From positions 1 through 27,449 of IMG/VR virus record IMGVR_UViG_3300030110_004503: a DNA stretch of 27,449 nucleotides, one strand, 5' to 3'. The notes under the pieces were generated by a model, which searched no databases, was not told the DNA's origin, and saw nothing but the letters and a program-made list of their open reading frames with translations. Of this stretch, positions 1,848-20,600 are shown in pieces (position 1 is the stretch's first letter; every line of letters starts with the position of its first letter). A program made the translations under genes and the position numbers. Origin of the DNA: a virus.

Positions 1848-2369
1848 TTAATCTTTCCTACTGAACCTACCGTGATATTTCTTTTCAGCTTCTTTGCGAG
1901 CTTTTATAGCATCTTCTTTATCAGTGAAGTATCCTAAGTGTTGAGGTTTCCCAAATGCTCTTATTTGAGCCAGCCATTTATTCTTTCCTTTAGCCCAAGT
2001 CACACCAGTTATACCGCTAGTGTTAGTGCTATAAATTTTGTGATTAAAACCGTTCTGAGATGTTGTCGCCAATCTGAGATTACTAATTTTGTTGTTTAAA
2101 CTATCGTTATCTTCATGGTCTACCAGATATTGTAAAGGGTCTATACCATGATACATATAATAAGCTAATCTATTAGCGCGATACCTTATATTGTTTATTC
2201 GTATTACCTTATACGGACGGCCATCTCTGTTTTTGCTATGCGTCCCTGCCTCTTCACCAACCTTTACGAAACCACAAGGAGTTATCTTCCAAGTAAACAC
2301 TCCTGTATCTGGATTATAATCTAAAATTTCTTTTAGATGTTTTAGCGGTGGTAGTCGTTTAAACTTCAT
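1848..2369 (-). CDS. HNH homing-type endonuclease with AP2-like DNA-binding domain
   Basis: This is a 173-aa protein of a type common as free-standing homing endonucleases in phages. The HNH core is at about residues 82-110: VDHEDND (83-89) carries the catalytic His85, followed by NNKISNLR (92-99) and TSQNGFNH (103-110). Residues about 118-168 form an AP2/ERF-like DNA-binding domain (SGITGVTW ... KWLAQIR ... GYFTDKEDAI). The N-terminal part (LDYNPDTGVFTWK) is the lead-in usual for this class. Its ATG overlaps the stop of the MazG-like gene (ATGA), so it is read as part of the operon. It probably entered as a mobile gene and was kept in frame with operon expression. Its target site cannot be told from this sequence. 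Confidence 0.85.
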   Translation of the reverse strand: MKFKRLPPLKHLKEILDYNPDTGVFTWKITPCGFVKVGEEAGTHSKNRDGRPYKVIRINNIRYRANRLAYYMYHGIDPLQYLVDHEDNDSLNNKISNLRLATTSQNGFNHKIYSTNTSGITGVTWAKGKNKWLAQIRAFGKPQHLGYFTDKEDAIKARKEAEKKYHGRFSRKD

Positions 2370-2707
2370 TTGTCTTTTACAAATTTACCATCAACCATCT
2401 TGCCAGTCCTGTTTTTGATCTCATCATAAGCCATCTGTAAACAATAAGTGGTGTCAAGATTCACCATTCTTGCCGCGATGATAATCGTCACAAGCATATC
2501 ACCAATGCCATCAGCGACTTCATCCTCTGCTTTTGAGATAGATTCCTGATCAAGAGCAGATGTCTGATACTCTTTAACAGCAAGAATTGTTTCATCTAAC
2601 TCCTCTTGAGTCTTATCTAGCTGTGCTAAAACATCTCCTTTATTAAAGATGCCGCGCTCCTCTGCCCAGTCGATGACTTTGCCGACTAATACTTCGTAGT
2701 TATCCAT
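2366..2707 (-). CDS. MazG-like nucleoside triphosphate pyrophosphohydrolase
   Basis: MazG enzymes hydrolyse NTPs or dNTPs to NMPs and pyrophosphate. The 113-aa protein is a single all-alpha MazG domain. The metal-binding pattern is complete: EELDE (residues 35-39, EExxE) and EVAD (63-66, ExxD), with a further Asp70. The end (AYDEIKNRTGKMVDGKFVKD) matches many phage and bacterial single-domain MazG proteins. The start codon overlaps the stop of the upstream gene by one base (TAATG), and its own stop overlaps the HNH gene start (ATGA), indicating one operon. Phage MazG proteins have been proposed to alter alarmone or nucleotide pools in the host. Here a pyrophosphatase is encoded two genes downstream, giving a direct outlet for the pyrophosphate produced. 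Confidence 0.9.
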   Translation of the reverse strand: MDNYEVLVGKVIDWAEERGIFNKGDVLAQLDKTQEELDETILAVKEYQTSALDQESISKAEDEVADGIGDMLVTIIIAARMVNLDTTYCLQMAYDEIKNRTGKMVDGKFVKDK

Positions 2708-2991
2708 TAGTTTATGTTTATGTGTTTAGGTGAGATTTCATGTATTTCTACGCACAATTTTAAGATCTCATAATCGCTCATATCCTTAGCTCTATCTTTT
2801 AGATTTCTCAAGTGCTCCATGTAATTATGGTATTTCTCTGATTGAGGGATAGAAACTTTTCTTGTGTGATCATAGATAGCATGATCATAGACCTCATACT
2901 TCTCTGGGTCTATCTGACGCTCTATGGGATCGTAATTAGTATTACCAACTACGTAGTTAAATATATCAGCTTTCTCTATCTTGATACGCAT
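2707..2991 (-). CDS. 94-aa hypothetical protein, first gene of the MazG-pyrophosphatase operon
   Basis: I do not recognise this protein. It begins MRIKIEKADIFNYV, has a charged middle rich in Tyr, His and Asp, and a C-terminal helix-like stretch (MSDYEILKLCVEIHEIS). It has no signal peptide or membrane segment, so it should be cytoplasmic. The chosen start is ATG 2991; an in-frame TTG at 2994 is less likely. A good promoter (TTGACA, 16 nt, TAATAT) ends seven bases before the ATG with no Shine-Dalgarno sequence, so the transcript may be leaderless. Its stop overlaps the MazG-like start (TAATG), which suggests coupled expression and possibly a related job, but its function is unknown. Confidence 0.7.
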   Translation of the reverse strand: MRIKIEKADIFNYVVGNTNYDPIERQIDPEKYEVYDHAIYDHTRKVSIPQSEKYHNYMEHLRNLKDRAKDMSDYEILKLCVEIHEISPKHININ

Positions 2992-2998
2992 CAAGAGG

Positions 2999-3026
2999 AT
3001 ATTAGAGCGAGGAGTATTTGTGTCAA
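2999..3026 (-). promoter_or_regulatory. Sigma70-type promoter for the MazG-pyrophosphatase operon
   Basis: On the minus strand a consensus TTGACA (3021-3026) and a TAATAT (2999-3004) are separated by 16 nt, directly after the endolysin stop. The -10 box ends seven bases before the ATG at 2991, so the transcript should start at or very near the start codon. Confidence 0.7.
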
Positions 3027-3033
3027 GAAAAAC

Positions 3034-3654
3034 TTACAGAATTCTAATCCTGCTTCTTATCTTGGAAACGTGACGCTTCTTCTCTAAAACAGAACCGCCT
3101 TCTCTGCTACCAGCACCGTTGGTATTACCCTCTATAGTGGTTACATAACCACTTGAATCAATGTCTTTGACTGCTATGCCAATGTGAGAGAAACTAAACA
3201 CAACTATATCACCAGCTTTGATATCTTCGTTTGTTGGCTTTCTTAACTCAACACCATTGCCAGCTTGCTTCTTAGCCCAGTTTTCAAAGTCCCAAGCTCC
3301 AGCAGTTTGAGGTCTTTTAAATGCGACTGTCTCTCCTTGTATAGCTTCTCTAACTAACCAGCAAATAAAAGCAGCACACCAAGGCCAGCCTTTATCTGCA
3401 TCTAGCCAAGTCGCAGCTTTGTATTCGTCAACCCTTGGCCCACAGTTACTGCCGTCAACTTCTGAAACTCCTATTTCACCGCGAGCTAACTGAACCATTT
3501 TTTCTGCTATACTACCTGTGGCATCAGCAGTTTCTTTTGTAGATAGTTTAGCCAGTATTGCGTTCCAAGTTACAGGACCATCAGCCCCATCAGCAGAAAC
3601 ACCGATAAGTTTCTGCACTGCTTTTACAACTTCTTTTTTACCTTTAAAATTCAT
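3034..3654 (-). CDS. Endolysin: peptidoglycan-binding domain plus CHAP amidase/peptidase
   Basis: This enzyme should cut host peptidoglycan at the end of infection. From the chosen ATG (3654) it is 206 aa. The N-terminal 35 residues look like a PG_binding_1-type repeat (KEVVKAVQKLIGVSADGADGP). The rest is a CHAP domain: catalytic Cys93 in WPWCAAF, His157 in SHIGIA, and Glu175 in IEGNTN. No signal peptide is visible, so export depends on the holin. A GTG at 3663 is an alternative start, but the ATG is preferred because AAGGTG lies about ten bases upstream of it and because it overlaps the stop of the upstream gene by one base (TAATG). It is the last gene of the holin, membrane protein, endolysin cassette. 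Confidence 0.9.
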   Translation of the reverse strand: MNFKGKKEVVKAVQKLIGVSADGADGPVTWNAILAKLSTKETADATGSIAEKMVQLARGEIGVSEVDGSNCGPRVDEYKAATWLDADKGWPWCAAFICWLVREAIQGETVAFKRPQTAGAWDFENWAKKQAGNGVELRKPTNEDIKAGDIVVFSFSHIGIAVKDIDSSGYVTTIEGNTNGAGSREGGSVLEKKRHVSKIRSRIRIL

Positions 3655-4259
3655 TATGCACACCTTCTACTAAAGCCAGCACAAACACACATTACAAAAC
3701 ATAAAACAACAGTTAATATCATAAAGTCTCTGTATTGCATTATGTCTTGGCTTAATTCTTCTGACCTTCCCTCATTGTAATACATTTTAGTATCCATAAT
3801 ATTATTTATGGCATCAATTGTTGGGTCAGTCATTTCATACATCAATGGTATAGATGCTTTTATTTTATCTAAATCATTATTTAGTCCCCACTTGATTAAA
3901 TCATCTACGTAGGAACTTATCTTCTCTTCCTGTTTAAAAACAAAATCTGCGTATGGTATCTCATCTTCTGTGATATCCTTTTTGTAACCGACTAAATACT
4001 CGTTTTTGTTTTGACGTTCTTCTTCAAGAATATCAACCATTTCTTCTGTTGTTATCACGCCATGTGATGTTTTTATAACAGAATTGACAATTATAACTCC
4101 ATACCAATCAAAACACATCCCTATCTCCATGATTGATGATTCAGACTGTCGAGCATTATCTTTTAAGGTATTATTTATATTCTCTGTAAGAGTAAGACCC
4201 TTCCATGCGAAAGATAAACAAATAGCAGCCAGACAATAAACTATAAACTTAGGTCTCAT
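3654..4259 (-). CDS. Two-TM lysis-cassette membrane protein with extracytoplasmic helical domain
   Basis: The 201-aa protein has a hydrophobic segment at about residues 4-19, a polar and mostly helical middle of about 155 residues, and a second membrane segment at about 179-196 followed by a short basic tail (SRRCA). With positive charge at both ends (MRPK and SRR), both termini are probably cytoplasmic and the middle periplasmic. I recognise no family. It sits exactly between holin and endolysin genes, with ATGA and TAATG overlaps on its two sides, so a part in lysis timing or envelope disruption is likely by position. It could be an antiholin or holin regulator. The similarity in layout to small sensor proteins (TM, helical sensor, TM) suggests a possible environmental or superinfection sensor; that is speculation. 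Confidence 0.6.
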   Translation of the reverse strand: MRPKFIVYCLAAICLSFAWKGLTLTENINNTLKDNARQSESSIMEIGMCFDWYGVIIVNSVIKTSHGVITTEEMVDILEEERQNKNEYLVGYKKDITEDEIPYADFVFKQEEKISSYVDDLIKWGLNNDLDKIKASIPLMYEMTDPTIDAINNIMDTKMYYNEGRSEELSQDIMQYRDFMILTVVLCFVMCVCAGFSRRCA

Positions 4260-4573
4260 CTTTTAATAAATTTTTCTGGATTCTTAGCGAACTTTTCCCC
4301 AAGTCGAACTATCCCAGAGATTATCTCTGGACTCACAACGCCAATAATGCCATACGTGATGGCTTTAGTAAGTGAGGAAACGTCAGTTTGCTCTAAAACA
4401 AACCAAGCTATACCCGCAGCAATTGCTGCTGTCAGTATTCTTTTGAGCTGTTGTTTGAATGACAATTCATTATGACCTGACAAAAGTCTCGCAAACATGG
4501 CGGCAGCACCAACCATTGGAACTAACCATCCTCCGTTAAGAAACTCCTTTATAATAGACTTTTCGGGTTCCAT
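4256..4573 (-). CDS. Holin, LydA-like (three membrane segments)
   Basis: This 105-aa protein should form the membrane lesions that release the endolysin. Three hydrophobic segments lie at about residues 15-32 (GWLVPMVGAAAMFARLL), 45-61 (RILTAAIAAGIAWFVL) and 69-88 (TKAITYGIIGVVSPEII). The GGWLVP start and the SPEII motif near the end of the third segment fit the LydA-type phage holin family as I know it. A charged tail follows (KNPEKFIKR). It is the first gene of the lysis cassette and overlaps the next gene (ATGA). The element GTGTAAATA lies seven bases before the ATG, right after the terminator of the upstream outer-membrane protein gene, so it probably has its own late promoter. Confidence 0.8.
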   Translation of the reverse strand: MEPEKSIIKEFLNGGWLVPMVGAAAMFARLLSGHNELSFKQQLKRILTAAIAAGIAWFVLEQTDVSSLTKAITYGIIGVVSPEIISGIVRLGEKFAKNPEKFIKR

Positions 4574-4580
4574 GTTTACT

Positions 4581-4589
4581 TATTTACAC
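4581..4589 (-). promoter_or_regulatory. GTGTAAATA start-proximal element, copy 2
   Basis: Minus-strand GTGTAAATA ends seven bases before the holin ATG (4573) and about seven bases after the T tract of the preceding terminator. A promoter is needed here if that terminator is efficient. It is identical to the element before the gene at 1132. Confidence 0.4.
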
Positions 4590-4596
4590 CTGATAC

Positions 4597-4624
4597 AAAA
4601 AAAAGCCCCCTTTGCAGGGGGCTT
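4597..4624 (-). terminator. Rho-independent terminator after the outer-membrane protein gene
   Basis: AAGCCCCC (4603-4610) and GGGGGCTT (4617-4624) form a perfect 8-bp GC-rich stem with a 6-nt loop, with eight T residues on the minus strand (4604-4597). The plus-strand side is also T-rich (TTAATTTTAATTTTTTTT), so it may work in both directions. It lies 23 bases after the stop of the 4648-5331 gene. Confidence 0.9.
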
Positions 4625-4647
4625 AATTTTAATTTTTTTTAAATAAA

Positions 4648-5331
4648 TTAGAAGCTATAAGTAAGACCAGCTCCAACTACCCAATCCTTTTGCAAGGAAT
4701 AAGCGGTGCCGTCAGCATCATTATCGTTAAATGACAATTTAGCTGATACTACTGCATCCTCTGTCAGCTGATAATCAGCTGATACTCCGACTTCAATTGC
4801 ATCGTAAGAATCAGCGAAGTTTACGGCGATAAAAGGACTGACTGTCAGTCCCTCAACAGGAGTGGTGAATTCACGGGAAGCAGTAAGCTCCACGCCGTAT
4901 CCTGCATTTGATCCAAGCTCATGCCAGAGACTAGCACCAACTTCGACCCAATCAAAACCGTAGGTAGCTCCAACTCCGACTTCTTCCCAGCCACCATAGC
5001 TAGAATCAATCTTTTGGAAGTAAACTTCAGTGTCAAGTGTGACATTAAACAGAGTTAATGGAACACCCCAAGCGATATTTACGTCCGCCTCAGTCTCACC
5101 ATCAGCTCTGTGGAGATCAATCCCAACAGATGCAACACCACCAGAAAGAGGCGAGCCAAGTAAAATAGAAGCGCTAGTAGAGTCATCTCTAATAGCCAGA
5201 CCTCCGCTTGTAGAAGTATTACTATACGCAATACCAGCTTCGACAGAAACGCTATCCGCGAGAGTAGCGTGAGAACCTGCGTTACAAATAGCAACGCCCA
5301 ACATTGTGATAAGACTAATTAGTGTCTTCAT
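4648..5331 (-). CDS. Phage-encoded outer-membrane beta-barrel protein
   Basis: The 227-aa precursor begins with a signal peptide (MKTLISLITMLGVAICNAGS, cleavage likely after Ala22 or Ala25). The mature part alternates short amphipathic strands with Gly, Asp and Ser turns and ends in TYSF, the terminal Phe typical of proteins inserted by the BAM machinery. About 200 mature residues would suit an 8- to 10-strand barrel. It has its own promoter (5363-5368 for the -35 box) and a strong terminator (4597-4624), so it is an independent cassette placed between spanin-like genes and the holin. Lambda's Lom is a known precedent for a phage outer-membrane protein. Possible roles are blocking superinfection by masking receptors, altering the host surface, or weakening the outer membrane; the sequence does not say which. 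The family is unassigned. Confidence 0.8.
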   Translation of the reverse strand: MKTLISLITMLGVAICNAGSHATLADSVSVEAGIAYSNTSTSGGLAIRDDSTSASILLGSPLSGGVASVGIDLHRADGETEADVNIAWGVPLTLFNVTLDTEVYFQKIDSSYGGWEEVGVGATYGFDWVEVGASLWHELGSNAGYGVELTASREFTTPVEGLTVSPFIAVNFADSYDAIEVGVSADYQLTEDAVVSAKLSFNDNDADGTAYSLQKDWVVGAGLTYSF

Positions 5332-5339
5332 TATTTACG

Positions 5340-5368
5340 TGTTTAGTTTAGTTATGAGAATATGTCAA
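5340..5368 (-). promoter_or_regulatory. Promoter for the outer-membrane protein gene
   Basis: A consensus TTGACA (5363-5368) lies on the minus strand just past the lipoprotein stop. With 17-nt spacing the -10 hexamer is a weak TAAACA (5340-5345), eight bases from the ATG at 5331. ACGTAAATA, similar to the GTGTAAATA element, directly abuts the ATG. The -35 is convincing, the -10 less so. Confidence 0.5.
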
Positions 5369-5371
5369 GGA

Positions 5372-5617
5372 TTATTTGCCTCTAAAATAAATTTCTCGCT
5401 CTAACCTTCGATAACGAGCATCGGAATGCCAAACCTCGTCAGTAAGAGGGGTATATGTGCCATCCTTAGTAAGCACAGGGTTATTCTTCTTCAGTCTTAG
5501 AGTAGAAGGCTGATAGATGTTCAAACTGTTTATTTTCGTAGTCGAGTTGCCTCCGCAAGATGTCAGCACGATCAGCGTCATTGCTATGACCAGTAGACCT
5601 AAGTTTTTCGATTTCAT
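5372..5617 (-). CDS. Rz1-like outer-membrane lipoprotein (o-spanin candidate)
   Basis: The 81-aa protein has a lipoprotein signal: MKSKN, a hydrophobic core (LGLLVIAMTLIVLTS) and the lipobox LTSC with the lipidated Cys21. The mature 61 residues are polar with scattered prolines (YQPS, NPVL, YTPLT) and end in a charged segment (RYRRLEREIYFRGK). The gene starts inside the upstream 5481-5735 gene in another frame and runs past its stop, overlapping by 137 bases. This is the overlapping arrangement of many Rz/Rz1 spanin pairs. Its role would be to join the inner and outer membranes with its partner at the last step of lysis. The family assignment rests on architecture and lysis context rather than a sequence match. 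Confidence 0.7.
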   Translation of the reverse strand: MKSKNLGLLVIAMTLIVLTSCGGNSTTKINSLNIYQPSTLRLKKNNPVLTKDGTYTPLTDEVWHSDARYRRLEREIYFRGK

Positions 5618-5735
5618 TTATAAGTTCAGCTTCGGTTTTTCTATGTTCTTTATGCAAATCATAGTAAAACTTCTTGTTTTTTAAAGACAAGAATAATTCT
5701 AATGACTTAACAAGGGATTTAATTAGACTTAGCAC
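5481..5735 (-). CDS. Rz-like coiled-coil protein overlapping the Rz1-like lipoprotein (i-spanin candidate)
   Basis: The 84-aa protein starts with an amphipathic to weakly hydrophobic helix (MLSLIKSLVKSLELFLSL, residues 1-18), then a basic patch (KNKKFYY) and a charged helical region rich in Glu, Lys, Arg and Leu (about residues 28-80) suited to a coiled coil. A standard i-spanin has a clear N-terminal membrane anchor; this one has lysines at positions 6 and 10, so the anchor is doubtful. It starts at GTG 5735, since an in-frame TGA lies two codons upstream, and it overlaps the preceding 65-aa gene by 17 bases. The nested lipoprotein gene is the main reason for the spanin call. Alternatively it is a cytoplasmic or peripheral protein of other function. 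Confidence 0.6.
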   Translation of the reverse strand: MLSLIKSLVKSLELFLSLKNKKFYYDLHKEHRKTEAELINEIEKLRSTGHSNDADRADILRRQLDYENKQFEHLSAFYSKTEEE

Positions 5736-5916
5736 TGGTCATTTTCTTGCATGAGAAGATTTCTTTTTCTTCCCCGTTTTCAGAAACTTCCTTTACCGAG
5801 CCATGAACTGACTTGGCACAATCAATTGCCCAATCACGGGCACCGTCTAACTGATTACTGTAACAATGGTGATACTGACCTTTTCGGTTGTATACTCTGT
5901 AAGATACGCAATTCAT
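5719..5916 (-). CDS. 65-aa hypothetical protein
   Basis: I do not recognise this small protein. It begins MNCVSYRVYNRKGQYHHCY, has three further cysteines or histidine-rich positions, a helical middle (GARDWAIDCAKSVHG) and a charged end. The first 50 residues look like a compact alpha/beta fold, with a strand, a helix, then VKEVSENGEEKEIF as a hairpin. Its ATG directly follows the stop of the GNAT-like gene (TAA then ATG, no gap), and its 3' end overlaps the Rz-like gene by 17 bases. The tight packing argues that it is a real gene of the 6627-5372 unit. Longer frames on the other strand here look like shadows. Confidence 0.6.
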   Translation of the reverse strand: MNCVSYRVYNRKGQYHHCYSNQLDGARDWAIDCAKSVHGSVKEVSENGEEKEIFSCKKMTSAKSN

Positions 5917-6627
5917 TTATTTATGAGGCTGGAATTCTAATGCTATTTTACCTGCGGTTGTTTTGTCATCTGACAGGAATCCGTGGATTAAAACACGATC
6001 AGTCAGAAAGTCAACACTTTTTTCATCTAAAAGGTATTTTTTGTCATCAAAAAATAATTCTCTTACTACTGTTCTCGGTCCTTTTCTTACAAAACCCATC
6101 TCGGATGTCTTACCCATCAAGTGCTCTGTCGCTTTATTAGTGCCTACTACCTTAAATATTACACTCATGTGATTTGATTTACTCCAAACTATTGTATTTT
6201 TATCGTCTGTTAAGATAATAGCTCTTTTATCGTATCTGTCAACCCATTTTATATATGATTTTACTTTAAATGTCCTTCTGACCTGACTTTTTAAGTAATT
6301 TTTATTAAATTTAACTAATGCATCATCGAAAATAGCATGTGCGGCACTAATTAATTTAGGACTAGTGAAGTTTTTTCTCACGCCAAAAATAAAATTTACG
6401 TCAAGACAATTAGTTTCCTCCTCCAAAAACACAAAACCCATTACTTTCCCATTTGATTCTGCCTTATATACTATTTTAGTAGAGTAAAAATTAAAACTAC
6501 TTTTAATTTTTTTATCTCTTAATTGACGAGATGGCAAGGAACAGAAATCGTATGGCTTAGATCTTATACAAAAATCATAAAAAAAAGGCCAAACTTCACT
6601 GGTGTCCTTTAAATGTGTAATTTTCAT
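5917..6627 (-). CDS. Putative GNAT-fold acyltransferase-like protein
   Basis: The 236-aa protein resembles phage members of the GNAT fold in residues about 50-140: strand KIVYKAESNGKVMGFVFLEE, strand CLDVNFIFGV (75-83), then a helix (LISAAHAIFDDALVKF, 92-107) and a basic segment ending in WVDRYDKRAIIL, a pattern I associate with phage GNAT-like proteins. The acetyl-CoA binding loop (RKNFTSPKL) is degenerate, so activity and substrate are uncertain. Residues about 150-236 are unlike anything I recognise. It is the first gene of the minus-strand block, divergent from the L gene across a 41-base gap, and shares a promoter region with it. A role in modifying the host or phage surface is possible but unproven. 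Confidence 0.5.
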   Translation of the reverse strand: MKITHLKDTSEVWPFFYDFCIRSKPYDFCSLPSRQLRDKKIKSSFNFYSTKIVYKAESNGKVMGFVFLEEETNCLDVNFIFGVRKNFTSPKLISAAHAIFDDALVKFNKNYLKSQVRRTFKVKSYIKWVDRYDKRAIILTDDKNTIVWSKSNHMSVIFKVVGTNKATEHLMGKTSEMGFVRKGPRTVVRELFFDDKKYLLDEKSVDFLTDRVLIHGFLSDDKTTAGKIALEFQPHK

Positions 6628-6668: not shown

Positions 6669-8792
6669 ATGGCGGGAGAAGGTAAAAATAAAGTAGCTAC
6701 TAGTCTATTAGACTTGCAACCTACTGCTGTTTTAGAGCTTTTTAAAATTTTTCCCGACAGAATTAATAAACCTACATTGTTCTTAGGTTTTCATGGCGGC
6801 ACTTTATACGATAAGTCTTTAGTTTGGCAAGGAGTCCAGTATTTACCACTAGCTATAGAAACCGATGGTTTTGATATTTTGGCTGATGGTCAATTAGCCC
6901 GACCTAAAATAAAAGTATCAAACAAAGGCAATATAGTAACTAATTTCCTGCAAAACTATAAAGATTTTGTCAATGCTAAGGTAATAAGGAAAAGAGTTTC
7001 TGTTAAATTTTTAGATGACGTAAATTTCGATGGAGGTAATCCTTTTGGTGTCGCTGATGCAAAAGCAGAATTAACAAATCAAGAATGGATTGTAGGACGA
7101 AAATTAGCAGAATCTAAATTATTCGCAGAGTTTGAATTAAACTCCCCATTAGATCTAGAAAGCTTTAATGTTAATTCTAGAGGTGTAGTCTCTAAATTTT
7201 GTTATTGGCAGTATAGAGGAGAAGGATGCAGATATCAAGGACAACCAATAGAGAGAGAAGATGGCTTAAGTTTCCAAGATGTTGATGGCAACCCTATAGT
7301 GCCAAAATATAGTCCACCTTTAAATCCTGATACATCTGGTCCATCGTCTGATGTAAATTTTTTTTATGACCCCGCTGCTGAGTGGAGCAATTCAAACACG
7401 TATGTGGCTGGAGATACAGTTTATGTTAAAAGTCCATCTATTATTATTGGAGGACAGCCCTTAAAAACAGTTTATGTTTGTGTTAGTGGCAACTCAGCTC
7501 AAGTTCCAGAAGGTAATCCTAGTTTTTGGCAAAAAGACGGATGCACAAAAAGATTTAGTGCGTGTCAAAAAAGATTTAATGACAAACCTAATTTAGATTT
7601 TATTTCTGATGCTGGAATAGAATCAGGTTTTAATTCTATAACTATAACTGGGTCACGTAGTAACCAAAACCCGAATAAACCTTTTATGGACCCAAATGAC
7701 CGTCTGATAGAGGAACAGGGGGTATTTAATCAGCCATTCCCTTTGAATACAGGTGTATTCCATAGCACTAGAGGTGAATTGACTACTGGTATTATGACTG
7801 GTGAATTCTGTATTGTTGGTTGGGCGCACATAAATGCAAATAGCCCAATTGATGCAGGTATTTTTAGCACCTCATCTAGAGATGATGGTGATATCCCACT
7901 TACTAGATTTATTAACATAGGAGGAGCTAATCACGCAAGGGCTTTAAGAAATACCGCTTTTAGAAAAGTAAAAGTATCTTTTTTAAGTGATACAGACCCA
8001 CAGACCTCAGTCCAAACTCAATTACATGATGTTCAAAGAGGTGCTGGATGGTGGAGAGATCCTAGAGAGTATCATCAATATATTATTACTCATGAAACAG
8101 GGGTTCAATTATTAAAGGAAGCTGTAGATGGTGGAGATAATATAAATTCTGCGTTAAGAAATATAGATACAAGCCTGAATGTAAGATTAGATGGAGAGAC
8201 AGTTGTCGCACAAGATTTAACTAATGGTAATTTTGCTAATATAGCTAGCAGAGAGAGTTTCACAAACAGCGAAGGTGCTAGCACACCTTTATTACCTCAG
8301 ACTTTTATGCTAGGCGGTATAGTAAAAAGATATGGAACAGCAGGATTTGAAACTGGTGGCGCACCTTTTACCTCTAGTATGAATGGAAGGTTAGGCCCGT
8401 GGGCTATCTGGAGTAGGAAGCTAACCGAAACTGAATTAGAATATTTATATAAACCTGTTACAGCTCCTAACAATATAGATCCACAAATACCCTTTGTTCC
8501 ACGCCCGTATTATGAATGCACTGGAAATTACACAGGTATAACTGGAGATCGTTTAGTAGCATGGTGGGATGGCACTACAGGCTTAATTCCAACCACAACT
8601 GAGATAGGCATGTTAGATATACACACAGGGTCGTTACACTTAACAGGTAGTGGATCATTTACTGGTAGTGACGAAAGTTACAAAGAAGCTACTATAACAA
8701 AACTTAACAATGAAACGCCTCCATACCCTCGGTTTGGTGGTTTTCCAGGAACTGATGGATTTAGTTATGAACGAAACTCTAGTATATACTAA
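6669..8792 (+). CDS. Tail-tip protein L (lambda gpL-like) carrying CBM5/12-like and LamG-like insertions
   Basis: Residues about 13-190 match the lambda gpL family of tail-tip proteins. The four cysteines that hold the iron-sulfur cluster in lambda gpL are kept with the same spacing: Cys178-x8-Cys187 and Cys292-x6-Cys299. In lambda the two pairs are about 22 residues apart; here 104 residues lie between them, including a stretch like a CBM5/12 chitin-binding module (EWSNSNTYVAGDTVYV ... NPSFWQ, about 238-287). The usual gpL ending, RFGGFPG, appears only at 688-694. The roughly 385 residues before it look like a LamG/concanavalin-type domain (GRLGPWAIWSRKLTETELEYLY near its end). At 707 aa the protein is about three times the usual length. 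It heads the L-K-I-J series and overlaps K. Confidence 0.85.
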   Translation: MAGEGKNKVATSLLDLQPTAVLELFKIFPDRINKPTLFLGFHGGTLYDKSLVWQGVQYLPLAIETDGFDILADGQLARPKIKVSNKGNIVTNFLQNYKDFVNAKVIRKRVSVKFLDDVNFDGGNPFGVADAKAELTNQEWIVGRKLAESKLFAEFELNSPLDLESFNVNSRGVVSKFCYWQYRGEGCRYQGQPIEREDGLSFQDVDGNPIVPKYSPPLNPDTSGPSSDVNFFYDPAAEWSNSNTYVAGDTVYVKSPSIIIGGQPLKTVYVCVSGNSAQVPEGNPSFWQKDGCTKRFSACQKRFNDKPNLDFISDAGIESGFNSITITGSRSNQNPNKPFMDPNDRLIEEQGVFNQPFPLNTGVFHSTRGELTTGIMTGEFCIVGWAHINANSPIDAGIFSTSSRDDGDIPLTRFINIGGANHARALRNTAFRKVKVSFLSDTDPQTSVQTQLHDVQRGAGWWRDPREYHQYIITHETGVQLLKEAVDGGDNINSALRNIDTSLNVRLDGETVVAQDLTNGNFANIASRESFTNSEGASTPLLPQTFMLGGIVKRYGTAGFETGGAPFTSSMNGRLGPWAIWSRKLTETELEYLYKPVTAPNNIDPQIPFVPRPYYECTGNYTGITGDRLVAWWDGTTGLIPTTTEIGMLDIHTGSLHLTGSGSFTGSDESYKEATITKLNNETPPYPRFGGFPGTDGFSYERNSSIY

Positions 8793-9177
8793 AACAGCTA
8801 AACAAGCTTTAGATAAGATCAAAGATATCTCTCACAAAAACTTTACAATAGAGGTTTGTGGGTTTCTTGGTTATGACTCTAATAAAAAACAATATGTTGT
8901 GAAACTAGAGCGTAACGTGTCAGATAAACCAAAAGACCATTTTATGATAAATCCCTTAAATTACTTAATTTTTAAAGAGGATTACGAAATGATCGCTGTT
9001 TTTCATAGTCATATTAATGGCGACGAGAAAGAGTCAGATTTTGATATAAAGATGGCAGAGAACTGTTGTCAGGCTTTTTTAATATACAGCCTTAATACAA
9101 AAAAAATAAATATTTACACACCCGAAAACTTAGAGGGGAATGTAAATAAGCTAGAAAGGGTTAAGGCTATAAAATGA
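8767..9177 (+). CDS. Tail assembly protein K-like, JAMM/MPN metalloprotease domain only
   Basis: The 136-aa protein (from ATG 8767) is a JAMM (Mov34/MPN/PAD-1) domain. The zinc motif is intact: Glu in TIEVCGFLGY, then HSH, seven residues, Ser, two residues, Asp (HSHINGDEKESDFD). Lambda gpK has this domain followed by an NlpC/P60 domain; here the second domain is missing and the protein ends after the JAMM fold. The chosen start overlaps the L gene by 26 bases. An in-frame ATG at 8755 with AGGA close by is an alternative, adding four residues. Its stop overlaps the next gene (ATGA). It should act in tail-tip assembly, possibly by processing a tip protein. Confidence 0.85.
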   Translation: MNETLVYTKTAKQALDKIKDISHKNFTIEVCGFLGYDSNKKQYVVKLERNVSDKPKDHFMINPLNYLIFKEDYEMIAVFHSHINGDEKESDFDIKMAENCCQAFLIYSLNTKKINIYTPENLEGNVNKLERVKAIK

Positions 9178-9779
9178 CAATAGTAAAATTACATGGTATT
9201 TTAGGGAAGGAGTATGGTCATACTTTCAAACTTAACATAGGGAACCCAAAGCATATATTACAAGCTATTGATTGTAATAGAAAAGGTTTCATGAAGAGGT
9301 TAGTCGATCTGCAATCTGATGGGCAAGGCTATGAGATAATAATTAATAAAAAAAGAACATCTGAACCTTCTGAAATAGAACTCCACAAAAAGCCAGAAAC
9401 AATTGACTTGGTTCCAGTTATAGTAGGCTCTAGTGGTGTTGAGCTACTTCTAATTGAAAAATTATTTTTTGCGATAGTTTTTGCAACTATTTCATATGCG
9501 TTGACTCCCAAACCAGAAGTTGACGCTTTAGAGATACAAGCAGGAGCTAATACTCAATCTTTAATATTTAGTAACCGAGTAAACGTGGCGAGCCAAGGTT
9601 CTCCAGTCCCGATAGGATATGGACGTTTAAAGGTAGGAACACAAGTTATACAAGCAACAATAAAATCTTTCCCCCAATCAACAGATCCTAATTCAATATT
9701 AGTTGATAAAAACTATAAGGGAGAGGTTTCAATAAACACTAATCGGATTCAAGATAGTAGACCTAGATTTATAGAATGA
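9174..9779 (+). CDS. Tail assembly protein I-like (lambda gpI family)
   Basis: The 201-aa protein matches the lambda gpI type. It has an N-terminal ubiquitin-like region (TIVKLHGILGKEYGHTFKLN), a hydrophobic central segment at about residues 96-112 (LIEKLFFAIVFATISYAL), and the conserved stretch NRVNVASQGSPVPIGYGRLK followed by GTQVI. The gene lies between K and J with four-base ATGA overlaps on both sides, and AAGG seven bases before its ATG serves as ribosome binding site. gpI is needed for tail-tip assembly in lambda but is not clearly kept in the virion. The residues after the GYGRLK motif (about 40) are specific to this protein. Confidence 0.85.
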   Translation: MTIVKLHGILGKEYGHTFKLNIGNPKHILQAIDCNRKGFMKRLVDLQSDGQGYEIIINKKRTSEPSEIELHKKPETIDLVPVIVGSSGVELLLIEKLFFAIVFATISYALTPKPEVDALEIQAGANTQSLIFSNRVNVASQGSPVPIGYGRLKVGTQVIQATIKSFPQSTDPNSILVDKNYKGEVSINTNRIQDSRPRFIE

Positions 9780-12700: not shown

Positions 12701-14692
12701 ACAGACAACCCCGCTTGGATTTTGTATGATTTGCTGACAAATAGCAGATATGGTATGGGAACACACATAGATCCAGATAATATAAATATTTGGGAACTAT
12801 ATAATATCGGAAGGTTTTGTGACGCTGTTGATGAACTTGGTTTCTTTGAAGGGGTAACGGATGGAAGAGGTGGTAAAGAGCCAAGGTTTTCCTGTAATAT
12901 AGTATTTGATCAAGGACAAAAAATATTTGATGCTATAAATATAATAGCATCTTTATTTAGAGGGCGCGTGTTTTTTAACGACACAACTATTAGTTTTGTA
13001 GATGATAGACCCCGAGATCCTGTAAACTTATTTACTAATGAAACTGTAAAAGATGGATTGTTCTTCTACTCAAACAATAGAAGAGATGAACAGTTCAATA
13101 CTATTGAAGTTGCTTACAATGATAGGTTCGATAACTTTGTGCCTAAAATAGAAGTCGTAGAGGACGAGGACAATATTAAAGAGAAGGGTGTCTTTAAGAA
13201 AAAAATAGAAGGCATAGGCATTACTTCTAGAGCTATGGCTCGCCGTGTAGCTCAACACCAAATTTTTTCTAAAATAAAAGAAAATCAACAGGTCGCGTTT
13301 ACAGCTGGTTTAGAAAGTCTTTTATGCAAACCTGGAGATCTTGTTATCATTGAAGATGATTTAAAAACAAATACAACAAATTATGGTAAGATATTAGACA
13401 TAAACTTAGATGACGAAACCATAAGGGTTAGTAATACTTTTGTCAGTAGTGACATGGATAAAGTATTAACTGTTTACAATCCAACAGGTGAAGATACTGC
13501 TTTAGACATACAAACAGGTTTTGCTGTAAAAAATAGAACTCGCTATTCACAATTAGAAGTAACTGGATCGACTCCAGCATTGCTAGCTAAATATACTGGC
13601 ACTTATACATTCTCTGGATACACTGAAGGATACGCTGGAGCCACAGGTGCGATTGATGATCCTCGTTTCCAGCAATATGCGCTTTACACAGGGTTACCAG
13701 ATAGTGGGACTGTTTTATATTTTGAAACTGGAGTAACTGGATGGGTTTTTGCATCTGGCACTGGAGTAGGTAATAAAAGCGCCTTTGATTTATTTTCTGG
13801 TGATTTGATATCAGAACTAACTGGTGACCATACGTTAGCCGCTGTCGGCACTGGTAAGTTTGCTGAAATGGACATGGTTGGAGACAAGAGATCGTCAACC
13901 CTATTTGGTTTCAGCGGCTTCAATTCTGACGCTTACATCGGACCAACAAAAGGTGCTTTAGAAACGGATTTAAAAAATCTAAACCCTGATCAATTAGAAG
14001 TATTAAATGTAACAAGTATTTTTAGCACACCCGCAGAATTAGATGCTAAAGATTTAAATAATTACGGAAGCTTACTCTCTGGTTTCGATAAGCCAGAAAT
14101 TCTGAAAAATTTAAAACTTGGTAGCCCTGCTAGATTACAAATAAAAAATGCAGATCCATTTATTTACAAAGTTATTTCCATGCAAGAGGAAAATATAAAT
14201 GAGTATCTAGTAACTGCTACAAAATACGACACAGGTAAATTTGACCTTATCGAAAAAAGCATCAGCATAGAGCCAGCAGCAAATACTTTTAGTTACAAGG
14301 CTACTCAAACTATAAATGGAATAACTTATGAAACATTAAATGCTCCAGTATTAAATACTGTAACCACTGGTATTCCTAATATCACTAACCAAACATTTGC
14401 TATAACTGGTCGATGGAATCAAATAACTAATGCCACTGGTTATAATGTCAGATTAAATATGCCTAATGGTAATTTTATATCTGCTAATACTGTAGCGACA
14501 GGATTGCAATTTTCTGGACTATCTCAGGTAGGACCATTCAGATATAGTGTAAATGCTTTGGGGAACAAGGGCAATTCAAACTTAACAACTGCATATTTCG
14601 ATTCTGATTATGATTCTTCAGGTATTTTTGTCGTTTACGATGACGCTTTAGTCAACAATGTATCATTTGTTCAAAGTCTTAGTATAATATAA
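9776..14692 (+). CDS. Tail-tip attachment/host-specificity protein J (lambda gpJ-like)
   Basis: This 1638-aa protein forms the central tail tip and usually contacts the receptor. The N-terminus has the conserved start ELQYGASHSFAETIDLISDG followed by PIEGIV (about residues 32-56). The core is at about 970-1200: HWTDNPAWILYDLLTNSRYG, then GRFCDAVDELGFF, a strand-rich section and KPGDLVIIEDD. Both parts are typical of gpJ. Between them lie about 850 residues, of which much of 80-700 is unlike lambda J (1132 aa in total). Another unusual insert with repeated TG dipeptides lies at about 1262-1390. Residues about 1523-1620 resemble a fibronectin type III domain (APVLNTV ... YNVRLN ... YSVNALGNKG). 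It overlaps I (ATGA) and the fibre gene (TAATG), so the whole run appears translationally coupled. Confidence 0.9.
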   Translation: MKHILKKISIAGAGRGGNQPKPPVYKPPILGELQYGASHSFAETIDLISDGPIEGIVDPDGRVLDGIRLLQGIYLDDTPAAISNRPSANEQITEVEIEAAQELNAQLNNDTSAAVTNIKRFFRELGESDQRSESALISNLQADPAVTPPNFESYAWPDCSLYYRLESKTIDENYDADEDIAFVEKKNKEGFGLRAFVKDEEDNKTFNTFYNEERFTTLSRTNSRFSYDDRFPYDHASVYWMDGATEANSKLMLSLYNNLQLNFYSRGHETRLDITRSEIHNPWSSREIAPNPNNPFNVQNRRDDWGSVQASFGSYFRDGIKKVYDFINTDECLQPILDFVETNRNEDGNKAQLALAEAALSSFLLEAPNATFRDGFFATLSDSYSDEEQPCLIAAAKVKETSNTELDGLNISVGQDEDGNLILENMTTRPFGTANGYSVQTKLEQRGVKVYDVTCPTIQADGTLTGDIDGFIVFKIPLEIQTNQDNLLEILQSLRVSESDMRGGLGLNRDQSLNRISTDYQNKGYTYSVNKEIYTLLKDIESFKYSKTTIPRSLLNQYSFSDLKFNFSNVLAEFREGSEYQDPLNYFKSIFIDHVYQRELFGPFNADRIATGPETSNGKDVKKSQTNAPQRLAQNTDLLTRSQVLDKSTADNYNLAVDSDGLPIEEGSDDKRKTGNSENGLVSKNYSDWAKRQLINWNEDAVSVIHTVYNPNVTRAFISLNISDLSDTLSFPELTPTAGLEGEKMEIAAKFPAVLNIRVETGSLGINEEGDSGIEQPYRTYNYRIVALIQGSTIVDIGNPDFEPEESRQFVVSLDGQDEKLNAGFQLPPTITTKQAILSADGETGLEVGSKIDEDGSIKRYVKVTKLSFETNSVLINKKVTLDKVTEIIDVPLPYPFSAIVGTKLDSRSFNAIPTRSYDCKLKKVKIPSNYSPVLPNGKDKRYYNNQAEFNSTSKKDKLVYDGDWDGSFKQGLHWTDNPAWILYDLLTNSRYGMGTHIDPDNINIWELYNIGRFCDAVDELGFFEGVTDGRGGKEPRFSCNIVFDQGQKIFDAINIIASLFRGRVFFNDTTISFVDDRPRDPVNLFTNETVKDGLFFYSNNRRDEQFNTIEVAYNDRFDNFVPKIEVVEDEDNIKEKGVFKKKIEGIGITSRAMARRVAQHQIFSKIKENQQVAFTAGLESLLCKPGDLVIIEDDLKTNTTNYGKILDINLDDETIRVSNTFVSSDMDKVLTVYNPTGEDTALDIQTGFAVKNRTRYSQLEVTGSTPALLAKYTGTYTFSGYTEGYAGATGAIDDPRFQQYALYTGLPDSGTVLYFETGVTGWVFASGTGVGNKSAFDLFSGDLISELTGDHTLAAVGTGKFAEMDMVGDKRSSTLFGFSGFNSDAYIGPTKGALETDLKNLNPDQLEVLNVTSIFSTPAELDAKDLNNYGSLLSGFDKPEILKNLKLGSPARLQIKNADPFIYKVISMQEENINEYLVTATKYDTGKFDLIEKSISIEPAANTFSYKATQTINGITYETLNAPVLNTVTTGIPNITNQTFAITGRWNQITNATGYNVRLNMPNGNFISANTVATGLQFSGLSQVGPFRYSVNALGNKGNSNLTTAYFDSDYDSSGIFVVYDDALVNNVSFVQSLSII

Positions 14693-17600
14693 TGAGCCAG
14701 CCATCATACGAAATTTTAAGGGTTACAAAGGATGAAGGAGCTATTATTTATGCTTCTGGAGCATATACGTTCGCCACAGGTGCCACTGGAGTAGGAGGAG
14801 TCCATAGAACAGCTGCTTCAGCTAATAATTGGAATAATGTAAGGTTTTTACACGTAGCGTCAAAAGTTGACAATTTAACTACATCTTTAGTTCCTAACTT
14901 CACCCCAGGAGCTAAGGAATTCGTAGGATCTACAGGAACAATTTTAGGCGGCTCTACACCAATTGGTGATTTAAGAGGTGAAGGAACAGGGTTTGTTGGT
15001 ATAGGAACAAATCAAATTCTTATACAAAAAGACTCCACCTACAGTGGAGCACTATACGCTATTTATGAGGGCGCTGGATCTACTCAGCTTACTGGTAAAA
15101 TAGGTATCGGGACAACTGCTGGTGATATTAGCACAAGTGGCTACTATGAGGGCACATTTAAAACAAAAAATGTTAATGAATTCGAAACAGTTTTTAGTGT
15201 CGATACTGGTGATTTAGCCAAGATAACAACTGGCAGTGGAGTCTACCTTAATGATACTGTTACTTTGACGAGCCAAATTGTTAATAGACAAGGCTCTTTA
15301 CTGACTACATCAGCGGAAATTGTAGCTGACCCTTTAATTAGCGGTCAAAAAATAAGCATATTAAATATTGATGGTGGTGTTGTTTTTAATGATTATAAAA
15401 TTACCAGTTCGCCAAGTTTTACGTTCACTAGACAAGATAATATAGATGTCTTTGGGTCTCACACTAGAAATTTTGGTATCCGAACCGAAATAGTAAACAA
15501 TGGAGGGGGTAGCCATAAAACAGATTTCTTCTTATATGGTAACTCGCTGTCTTTACAAGAGGTATACGTCCAAGCATCTGGTGTATCTAGATTAAATCAA
15601 TCAACAGGTAATTTAAGTATAAACACTGGCAGCATTACAAGCGCCGCAGATAGGGCTATAGCATTACAAGGTTTTAGTCAGCAAACATTATCGAATACAG
15701 GAGTATCTGGATTTATTGATTTTCAATTGTTTTTTGATCAAGATCCTAGTTATACTAACTATGCTAACCTTGATGTTTATGTCTCCAACACAGGGACTGG
15801 CTTTAATCTAACACAAGGTAATTTTCTTGGAAACTTTCCCCTAGACCAAACTCAAGGACAACACATTAGATTGTTCCCTAATGATTTTGGTAATTATAAT
15901 AAATCTGATATAGACCTATCACAAGATCTATATTTTAAATTTAGAACTGAAAGTAGTGTATTCTTAGACAGTCAAATATTTTCAGTAGGACCATATAGAA
16001 TAGAATCTATACCTTTTGGTGATGAACTTTATCTCGGCAATGCGGGAGGATCAGTATCCTCAACTGATAGAACTGATTCAACTGATGCTAAGTTAATAGT
16101 AGACGATGGTTTTGATGGGGGAACAATATTTGCAAATACCTACTCAGGATCTGGCGTAAGTGGTAGAATAACAGATCCATTCGGAAAAATATATTTAATA
16201 TCTGGAGAGGGTGGAACTACTGAAGCAGACACTTTACAAACTGTCACAGATCGTGGTAATAGCACAAACACTTCGATCCTTTCAACAGGACCGCATATCT
16301 CTGGTGTGACGGGACTGTTTAGCGATAGAGTGGGCATAGGAACCCTAGAAGTTTTTGGTGACACAACATTTAGCGTTGTTGGCGCAGGATCTACTGCTGC
16401 AAGTTTTACAGTAAGAAATGGAGTTGGGGGAGACCGAGGTTTTGTTGGGATTGGTTCTACTGAACCACAGTTTCCTCTTGATGGATCTAATTTAGCAAGA
16501 GCAAACATCGGGGCAGCAAGAAGTGAAATCAACTCAACTGGATCAGCTATTATGGGTGGTGCCGATCATCATATAAGTGGTGATTTCAACATGATAGCAG
16601 GTGGTATTTTCAACAACATCTCAGGTAATAATTTCTCTTTTATTGGTGGTGGATCTGGTATTGATATCACAGGTAGTAAATTTTCCACATCAGTAGGTGG
16701 TGATAATAATGATATATTTTTAGGCACTGGACACTTCTTAGGTGGAGGTCGGGATAACCTAATCACTGGGGCTAAATTAGCATCCACAATAGTTGGTGGA
16801 GATCAAAACAAAATATTTGGCGGTAATAGCAACTTTATCGGTGGTGGAGATAGGAATATTATAACTGGCTCTAGAGATGGTGCGACTCTAGTAGGAGGCA
16901 CCAACAATCAAGTTTCTGCCACTCTTGGTTTCGTCGGTGCTGGTGGGACAAATGTAGTTCATGGCCCACCTCAAGGGGGTGCTATTTTAGGAGGCGTAGG
17001 GAACTCAGTTTCTGGGGCTTATAGTTCTAGTATTGGTGGTTTTTCTAATGCTGTAAGTGGCGATTATAGTATAGTTGGCGGATATAAAGCTCAAATACCT
17101 GATGGTGTTGATGGGGCCACTGTTTTGGCTGATGGACAAAACCGAGATCATATATCTAGTGGATCTAATACTATAACTTTGGATTTCGCTGGTGGCGTTC
17201 ATGTGCCAACCAGCGGTCTGTTCGCACAGGGGTTATTAGTTAGTGGTGTGCCAGTCTCAACGGGATCTGCTGCCGAAGCAGATACCTTGCAAACAGTTAC
17301 AGATCGTGGTGCTACCACCACTAATAGTATCACGGTAGGACTTACATTAGATGTCGCCGATTCTGTAAGACATGCTGGTGATACAGATACAAGATTAGAC
17401 TTCGCTCCAGATCAGGTAAAACTTGTTTCTAATGGCATAACACGTTTACAAACGGAAAACGCTGGAGTCATTATTAATGAAGGAGGTGTTTCTGCCGACT
17501 TTAGAGTCGAGGGTGACACTGATACTCACGCATTATTTGTAGATGGTTCTGCTGATAATGTAGGTATAGGCACAGACAGTCCGTCTACAAAATTCCATTT

Positions 17601-20600
17601 AGGAAGCGGTATTGCTAGATTCCAAAATGGCTTGTCCAATTACATAGAAGTTGATGGTGGTGTAGCTGGCCAAAACATTGCTAGAATAAGCTCAAGATTT
17701 AATAGGTTTGAAATAGTAACAAATGCTGGGGCTGGTGACCCTGATATATCTTTGATGCCAGCCGCTGGCGGTAATGTGGGAATAGGTAATAACAGCCCAG
17801 CCGAGGCATTGTCTATCAGCACCGCTGCTGAATCTAAAGATAACAACATAGATTTCTTAGTCTCCAACTCTTATAATGCAGGTTTGTTGTTTAGAGATCC
17901 AGGTGGCGGGAGGGGTTCTATTATATCTAATACAGATAATGATTTAATTTTCTCTACTAATGGCACAGGTGTTTCTGCTGAAACCATGCGTATTCAAGAC
18001 GATGGCAATGTAGGTATAGGAACAAATAGTCCTACAACAAAACTAGCTGTCGCGGGGACGATATCTGGCGTTAGCGGACAATTTAGTCAGGGTTTGTTTA
18101 TTAGCGGAGTCCCTGTATCAACGGGATCTGCTGCCGAAGCAGATACCCTTGCTACTGTTACCGCTCGCGGGAACACCACAAGCACTTCTATTTTATCCAC
18201 GGGACCACACATCTCTGGTGTAACAGGATTATTCCAAGATGGTATAGGTATTAATACAACTGATGTAAGTTCTTCTTTAACGGTCAGTGCTACGGGAGAT
18301 AGCCATGCGGGTGGTTATGGCAATAATATTAAATTAAATGGTAGCAATTTTCCCTCTATCTTATTTGACGCTAGTTCTAATAATGATTTCTTATTGGGCG
18401 TAGATGGAAATGGATTTAATATTAAAGAAGCTGGCTCAGATGCTAGGCTTGTAATAGACAACAATGGGCTTGTCGGTATAGGGACACATAACCCAAGTGC
18501 GGCGCTTTCAGTTGGTGATGGTGGTGATAAAAGAGCTTCTAATACAGACTTTGTAATTTCTGATGATACTCCACAAATAGAATTAAGAGACACTGCTAAG
18601 AGTGCGATTATTTCTTTCAATGACACTCAAGGGGTTAGAATTTTTTCAAATTATAGCACTAGCACTTCTCCTCAATTTACTATCGAAAATGATGGCAATG
18701 TGGGGATAGGGACATCTACTCCAGATGATGCTTTGACAATCGTAGGGACATCAGCAGATTTCTCTCTAAGAAAAGCCGATAATAGTTTAGCTGCAAGACT
18801 AGTTCAATTCTCTGCTGGAGGCGCTCAACTAAGACTTTATGATTCAGGCTCTAATGAGCAGATTAGATTAGCTGGAGATGGTAGCAATTCTTTCATTACT
18901 GGCAATGTAGGAATAGGAATAACTAATCCAAACAAACCACTTCAAGTTGTAGGAGGTATATCTGGTGAGGACATAATCTTAGATGCAGGTAACAGCTCTG
19001 ACATGGCGATTCAATTCGCTGGATCAAGCAACGGAATATATTGCGATCCTGTGACACAGATGAGATTCGCAGTTGATAGTGCATCCTCTGCGATGGTGCT
19101 ATCCTCTAACAACATTCAGTTTGGTGCTGGTGGTAACTCAAAACTTACTTGGTCAACTAATAATTATTTAGAATTTAATGGTGGCGGCACTAAAGCCAGA
19201 TTGAATTCTGCTGGTCTAGGTATAGGCACAACAAACCCAGACGGAATTCTTAATACAAGTGGCGGCCATGTTACATTACAAGGGGTAAACAAAGGTTATA
19301 TAAGAGCGCGAGAAGAAAGAGCAAGCGTTTCAGACTATACTAGTGTAAGCTCTTCTATTTTAACTTTAGCTAACTACTTTGGACAAAATGAATATGGCCA
19401 GTTTGTTGATAATGCAGGTAATTTTATAATACAAAAATCTGGTCTAGCAACTCATCTTCTTAAGTTTAGCACCACTGATATCACAGTAAGTGGTTATGGT
19501 ATAAAATTTGCCAAAAACCAAGCTCTGGCTAATCTGGCCATTGACTTAAGAAATGAAAACGGTGATGAAGTAGGTTTCTATTCCCCCGCTACAAATGTTA
19601 TAGGTTTTGTTACTGACAGAACCGAAAGAATGCGGATTGATTCTGCTGGTAAAGTAGGTATAGGAACAGATAGTCCAAGTTATACATTAGATGTAAATGG
19701 TAGGATTCGGACCAAACAAGACCTCTACCTAGACGGTGCTTATGTTATAAAGAATTTAAGCAATCATTTATACCTCGATGCAGCGAGCAGTAAAGACATA
19801 ATTTTTAGACCCAATAATGGCACTGAAAAAATGCGGATTACCTCCGCAGGTAATGTAGGTATAGGAACAGATACCCCGACAACAGAACTAGCGGTCGTAG
19901 GGACAATATCTGGGGTCAGCGGACAATTCGATCAAGGGTTGTTCATTAGCGGAGTCCCAGTTTCTACGGGGTCTGCTGCCGAAGCGGATACGTTACAGAC
20001 TGTCACGACTCGCGGGAACACGACAAGCACTTCTATTTTATCCACGGGGCCACACATCTCTGGTGTGACAGGGTTCTTTAGCAATAGACTACATGTTGGA
20101 ACTCCAATTGGAACACATGACTGCGCGATTGAAGCCGCTCATGGTAGCAGACAGCTAATTGTCTCCGATACTACCTCTGTGGCAGCGGGTGTTGGCGGCA
20201 AGGTCGATTTTTTTGGTGCATACACAGCAGGTGGAGCCAGAACATTATTCGGAAGTATACAAGCAAAGAAAACTAATGCTAGTGCTGGACACTATGGAGG
20301 TGGTTTAGCTCTATCAACAAGAGTTAATGGAGGAGGTGCTGCCACCGAAAGATTAACAATTCTTGAGGGCGGCAATGTCGGAATAGGAACAGTTAGTCCA
20401 GATGCTACACTTCAAATCAAAGCTGGAGATACTACGGGGTTTTTAGTGCAGAGCAGCTCAGATAAAAATATCTTATGGGCCGAAGATACTGAAAGTGTTA
20501 ATGTAAGACAAACATTAAATGTATATCATACCACTGTAGCATCACGCTACTTACAATTAGGTTGGGGTTCTGTATTTGCTAATGATAACGATAATGAACT

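Follow-up and report, generated by a model that had tools for sequence, protein, structure and literature searches.

Among described tail-tip proteins, the nearest to the one analyzed here are the gpL proteins of lambda and other siphophages (PF05100/TIGR01600). Lambda gpL is 232 aa long and carries no inserts. Its Cys residues coordinate a 4Fe-4S cluster; the iron-sulfur domain is exposed on the outside of the tail tip, and what it does there was posed as an open question (PMC10721106). In the hubs of RcGTA (Rcc01696, g13) and roseophage R4C (gp14), an oligosaccharide-binding domain is located between the two Cys pairs (PMC7296036, PMC10276861). Carbohydrate-binding modules in the loops of the so-called evolved Dit and Tal proteins are also well known in siphophages of Gram-positive hosts (PMC7291167).

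The window, that is, the whole stretch of DNA analyzed, comes from IMG/VR, where it is a virus record 27,449 bases long. One of its ORFs encodes a protein matched by the profiles Phage_tail_L PF05100 (residues 41–198, E 9.5e-38, 130 bits vs. a cut-off of 25) and TIGR01600 (residues 16–196, E 1.3e-41, 142.3 bits vs. a cut-off of 70.75), as well as by PHROG_18 (E 1.1e-50) and lambda gpL (8iyk_L, E 1.2e-20). An hhalign comparison of its N-terminal domain with lambda gpL gave a probability of 99.1 over columns 49–204. The HDI domain, the Cys spacings of eight and six residues, the FGGF ending, and the place before K-I-J are shared with the lambda family. The layout of the window protein is C178-x8-C187-x104-C292-x6-C299-x388-RFGGF, and that of lambda gpL is C173-x8-C182-x22-C205-x6-C212-x7-NFGGF; the former exceeds the latter by 82 residues in the stretch that separates the Cys pairs and by 381 residues before the FGGF ending. 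The sequence-only reading had placed the ORF, both Cys pairs, and the RFGGFPG motif exactly as listed in Table 1 and had put about 80 extra residues between the pairs and about 385 residues between the last Cys and the ending, which the comparison bears out.

Table 1. Features of the gpL homologue and of the genes downstream of it (positions in the window).
Feature	Position	Strand	Evidence
gpL homologue (tail-tip ring / hub domain I), 707 aa, two inserted domains	6669..8792	+	PF05100, TIGR01600, PHROG_18, and lambda gpL matches
gpL residues 1–177, N-terminal HDI / attachment domain	6669..7199	+	matches at 41–198 and 16–196; hhalign
First Cys pair C178-x8-C187, predicted 4Fe-4S domain	7200..7229	+	invariant (37 representatives); lambda C173/C182
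Insert 1, residues ~205–288; CBM5/12-like pattern 238–288 (W239, Y245, W287)	7281..7532	+	PF02839 pieces, conservation, model strands
Second Cys pair C292-x6-C299	7542..7565	+	invariant (37 representatives); PF09356; R4C motif alignment
Insert 2, residues ~305–687, LamG / concanavalin A-like jelly roll	7581..8729	+	AF2, Foldseek, hhalign, PF13385 in homologues
C-terminal motif RFGGFPG, residues 688–694	8730..8750	+	conservation; joined directly to second Cys motif in L318–L320
gpK homologue, JAB peptidase domain only	8710..9177	+	Prok-JAB 6.2e-6, PHROG_30 2.7e-16
gpI homologue	9174..9779	+	PHROG_32 2.6e-26
gpJ homologue, 1638 aa	9776..14692	+	PHROG_31 4.4e-104, Phage-tail_3 1.2e-15

The four Cys residues and G690, G691, P693, and G694 were invariant across 37 representatives of the window family, and the Cys residues are predicted to bind a 4Fe-4S cluster. 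The full-length model was poor in the N-terminal domain (pLDDT ~30–45 in places). The gpL profile matches, the invariant Cys residues, and the relatives that carry insert 1 alone support the proposal, made from the sequence at the outset, that the window protein would be a genuine lambda-type gpL with insertions at two separate sites and both core motifs kept.

Complete homologues of the window gpL were gathered from IMG/VR. Both inserts were present in 114 of the 115 distinct complete proteins of this set, the exception being that of the named phage S-H1. A background set of 79 complete S-H1-like gpLs was used for comparison: the Cys2–Cys3 spacing was 21–25 residues in 66 of the 74 proteins in which it was measured and reached 40 at most, vs. 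104 in the window gpL, and the last Cys was followed by 21–29 residues, vs. 408 in the window gpL. The gpLs of nine named phages were 227–244 aa long. Since the Cys, Gly, and Pro residues are invariant, the inserts occur in all 114 proteins, and the spacing lies far outside the S-H1-like background, this architecture did not arise by chance.

The search of bacterial and archaeal genomes yielded one locus, L318, whose 319-aa gpL has insert 1 and lacks insert 2; CKLRFGEGKI is joined directly to PFGGFPGTDGF, and the second site is thus uninterrupted. Two further insert-1-only gpLs from IMG/VR (L319 and L320) were 75% identical to it, and in all three proteins (319–320 aa) the second site reads SSCKLRFG..(K/R)IPFGGFPGT. 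Ordinary gpLs without either insert also exist. On a maximum-likelihood tree of the N-terminal HDI domain, the two-insert gpLs formed one clade (91/94) and the insert-1-only pair another (100/98), with the no-insert gpLs outside; two changes in all are required on this topology. A stepwise gain, in which insert 1 would have been acquired first and insert 2 later, is therefore well supported by the tree, although the order falls short of being beyond doubt because the tree contains a number of long branches, about which the program issued a warning.

The domain assignments of the two inserts differed in strength. In insert 1, Y245 and W287 were invariant in the 37 representatives and W239 was conserved in at least 90% of them, and the gpL model contained three strands of good confidence (residues 249–260, 263–271, and 287–290). 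The identification of this insert as a CBM5/12 module, suggested by the sequence-only reading, finds weak backing: two pieces of the PF02839 profile lie on it in order (profile positions 1–14 on window residues 238–251 and 21–44 in relative L001), but the score was at most 13 bits against the curated cut-off of 26.2. Scans of the inserts of the window copy against Pfam, PHROG, and NCBIfam returned nothing except a weak PHROG_6278 match to insert 1, 50,697 named phages searched by tblastn contained no match to either insert, and a PDB search with the insert-1 profile gave a chance-level match only. A small three-stranded CBM5/12-like sheet fits these data but is not proven by them.

The LamG-like nature of insert 2, in turn, proved well founded. 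The window copy did not reach the Laminin_G_3 (PF13385) cut-off; in two homologues that align with it over the insert (L183 and L187), a single ORF contains both PF05100 (E ~1e-37) and, at residues 352–505 within insert 2, PF13385, which there exceeds the cut-off (E 8.5e-7 and 1.4e-7). The insert-2 family profile matched a canonical LamG profile built from 102 viral LamG domains (hhalign P 3e-8, probability 95). The AF2 model of the insert (pLDDT 84.7, pTM 0.86) was a jelly roll; its best Foldseek matches in the PDB (TMt up to 0.63) included PAPP-A, pentraxins, CBM40, and a Bacteroides carbohydrate-binding protein, and its viral matches, from BFVD, included proteins annotated as LamG. Insert 2 shares the sequence profile, in homologues, and the predicted fold with the LamG domains (PF13385) of viral structural proteins, but it sits inside gpL and the first-strand segment was not found at the usual place.

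Selective constraint was estimated as dN/dS in six pairs (the window vs. L001, L002, L003, L004, L005, and L007). The values were 0.02–0.06 for the core, 0.00–0.20 for insert 1, and 0.18–0.32 for insert 2. From the last range, compared with that of the core, it follows that insert 2 is kept by selection and evolves faster than the ring domain. The faster change suggests a host-contact domain, of which it would be expected; a looser folding constraint is the alternative.

The gene order in the window is L-K-I-J, and a series of ORFs of matching lengths follows gpL in the relatives. The gpK ORF overlaps gpL, and its true start may be downstream of the overlap; the profile scans showed no NlpC/P60 match in it. 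In the gpJ homologue, the conserved core begins at residue ~862, vs. ~189 in the lambda TipJ profile, with several hundred extra residues before it. Further downstream, a 2887-aa ORF (14692–23355) matches tail-fibre PHROGs repeatedly, phrog_18345 in 10 stretches, and lacks a Pfam match. Upstream, a 236-aa ORF on the minus strand (5917–6627), oriented divergently from gpL, had no PHROG match; its position is taken by ORFs of 230–241 aa in L078, L144, and L171. A divergent block at 1848–3663, also on the minus strand, contains genes for an HNH endonuclease, a MazG-like pyrophosphatase, and an endolysin. In the L318 locus, gpL (1578–2537 of JABXKB010000040.1) lies within a phage tail-tip operon that has two tandem gpI-like ORFs (2957–4432 and 4437–5885) between gpK and gpJ. 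This MAG contig, labelled Candidatus Lokiarchaeota, was the only one obtained in the host search of 84,980 genomes. No host is claimed, since the contig resembles a virus contig in the bin and the binning assignment looks doubtful.

Several other explanations of this architecture were considered. The unusual length of the protein, and nothing else, would suit a fusion or assembly artefact in which the gpL gene was misjoined with a neighboring LamG gene. However, the LamG domain is followed by the gpL ending FGGFPGTDG, and many contigs, with 114 distinct sequences among them, share this architecture; these independent contigs refute misassembly, and we give the artefact practically no credence. 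A closer contest concerns the origin of insert 1, which might be a divergent copy of the oligosaccharide-binding domain of the RcGTA/R4C hubs instead of a CBM5/12 relative. The insertion site is the same and the size similar (~80 residues; 162–243 in R4C and 168–249 in RcGTA), and 16 of the 37 members have a PF09356 (BR0599) match at the second Cys motif (best E 0.001). Against this, the profile comparison with the R4C hub aligned just the Cys motif, over 15 columns, the motif of the window family pairing with GCDRTADTCRNRF, and the ordered sub-threshold PF02839 pieces point elsewhere. We therefore rejected insert 1 as a recognizable hub domain and consider a divergent copy unlikely, though the least remote of the alternatives.

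Another possibility is that the inserts are structural and brace the tail tip, through gpL-gpJ-gpI contacts or as the seat of the 2887-aa fibre, with no host ligand. Such permanence as the presence of both inserts in all 114 members suits a structural part, and in close pairs the constraint on insert 1 (dN/dS 0.00–0.11, L001–L004) comes near that on the core. Yet insert 2 is absent from sister gpLs, and ordinary gpLs have neither insert; insert 2, which has a lectin-type fold, is also under the weakest constraint of any part of the protein. A purely structural role thus appears improbable to us. We are equally skeptical of a more specific proposal, in which insert 2 would be the main receptor-binding module on the gpL ring, built as a circularly permuted jelly roll whose two ends would rejoin the gpL core by way of two long strands. 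A segment resembling a LamG opening, LVAWWDG...LDIHTG..HLTG (window 8553–8648, gpL residues ~629–660), indeed stands after the closing-type segment MNGRLGPWAIWSRKLTETELEYLY (residues ~571–593). In a profile test of the permutation, the C-terminal segment scored higher than any other segment compared and aligned in register, yet not significantly (P 0.085), and a single-sequence HMM test performed no better than reversed and shuffled controls.

The explanation that we prefer, with a probability of about 0.72, is a gpL homologue that gained domains stepwise at two loops and most likely has a glycan-binding role at the tip. The protein retains the HDI ring domain, the four-Cys domain predicted to bind a 4Fe-4S cluster, and the C-terminal FGGFPG segment. 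Two loops of the iron-sulfur domain took up the additions: the one separating the Cys pairs first received a small, three-stranded module resembling a CBM, and the one that leads from the last Cys to the C-terminal motif later received the LamG/concanavalin-like jelly roll. As both insertion points are in the iron-sulfur domain, the inserts should project around the tip in three copies each. They would likely bind host-surface glycans weakly and multivalently, which may hold and orient the tip until the main receptor is engaged by gpJ or the large fibre. The suggested binding of sugars and part in adsorption follow the analogy with the RcGTA/R4C hub domains and the evolved Dits. Many LamG folds bind proteins or ions rather than sugars. 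We infer that, in a widespread marine phage group, gpL with two added folded domains probably lets the tail tip hold host-surface sugars.

The novelty attributed to this arrangement by the sequence-only reading was overstated, since the RcGTA/R4C hubs were already known to have a domain between their Cys pairs, and Dit/Tal to have modules in their loops. A LamG domain at the second site of gpL was not found described in the mostly open-access literature on gpL and tail-tip inserts and on lectin-like domains. The RcGTA/R4C hubs resemble the window protein in being of gpL type and in having an inserted domain that separates the two Cys pairs. In R4C, however, that domain is unrelated to insert 1 by sequence and there is no second insert, CRNRF leading almost directly to NFRGFP; the N-terminal domain of these hubs belongs to PF09931, whereas that of the window gpL belongs to PF05100. 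Evolved Dit/Tal are likewise conserved tail-tip proteins with carbohydrate-binding modules inserted in their loops, but the host protein is Dit or Tal and not gpL, their CBMs often have the BppA fold, and LamG is unmentioned (PMC7291167). With two loops used, the Cys residues kept, and relatives with zero, one, or two inserts in existence, the iron-sulfur domain appears to be an evolvable site for the docking of host-contact modules. Natural gpLs with none, one, and two inserts provide matched proteins for testing this idea, which would extend the concept of evolved Dit/Tal to gpL.
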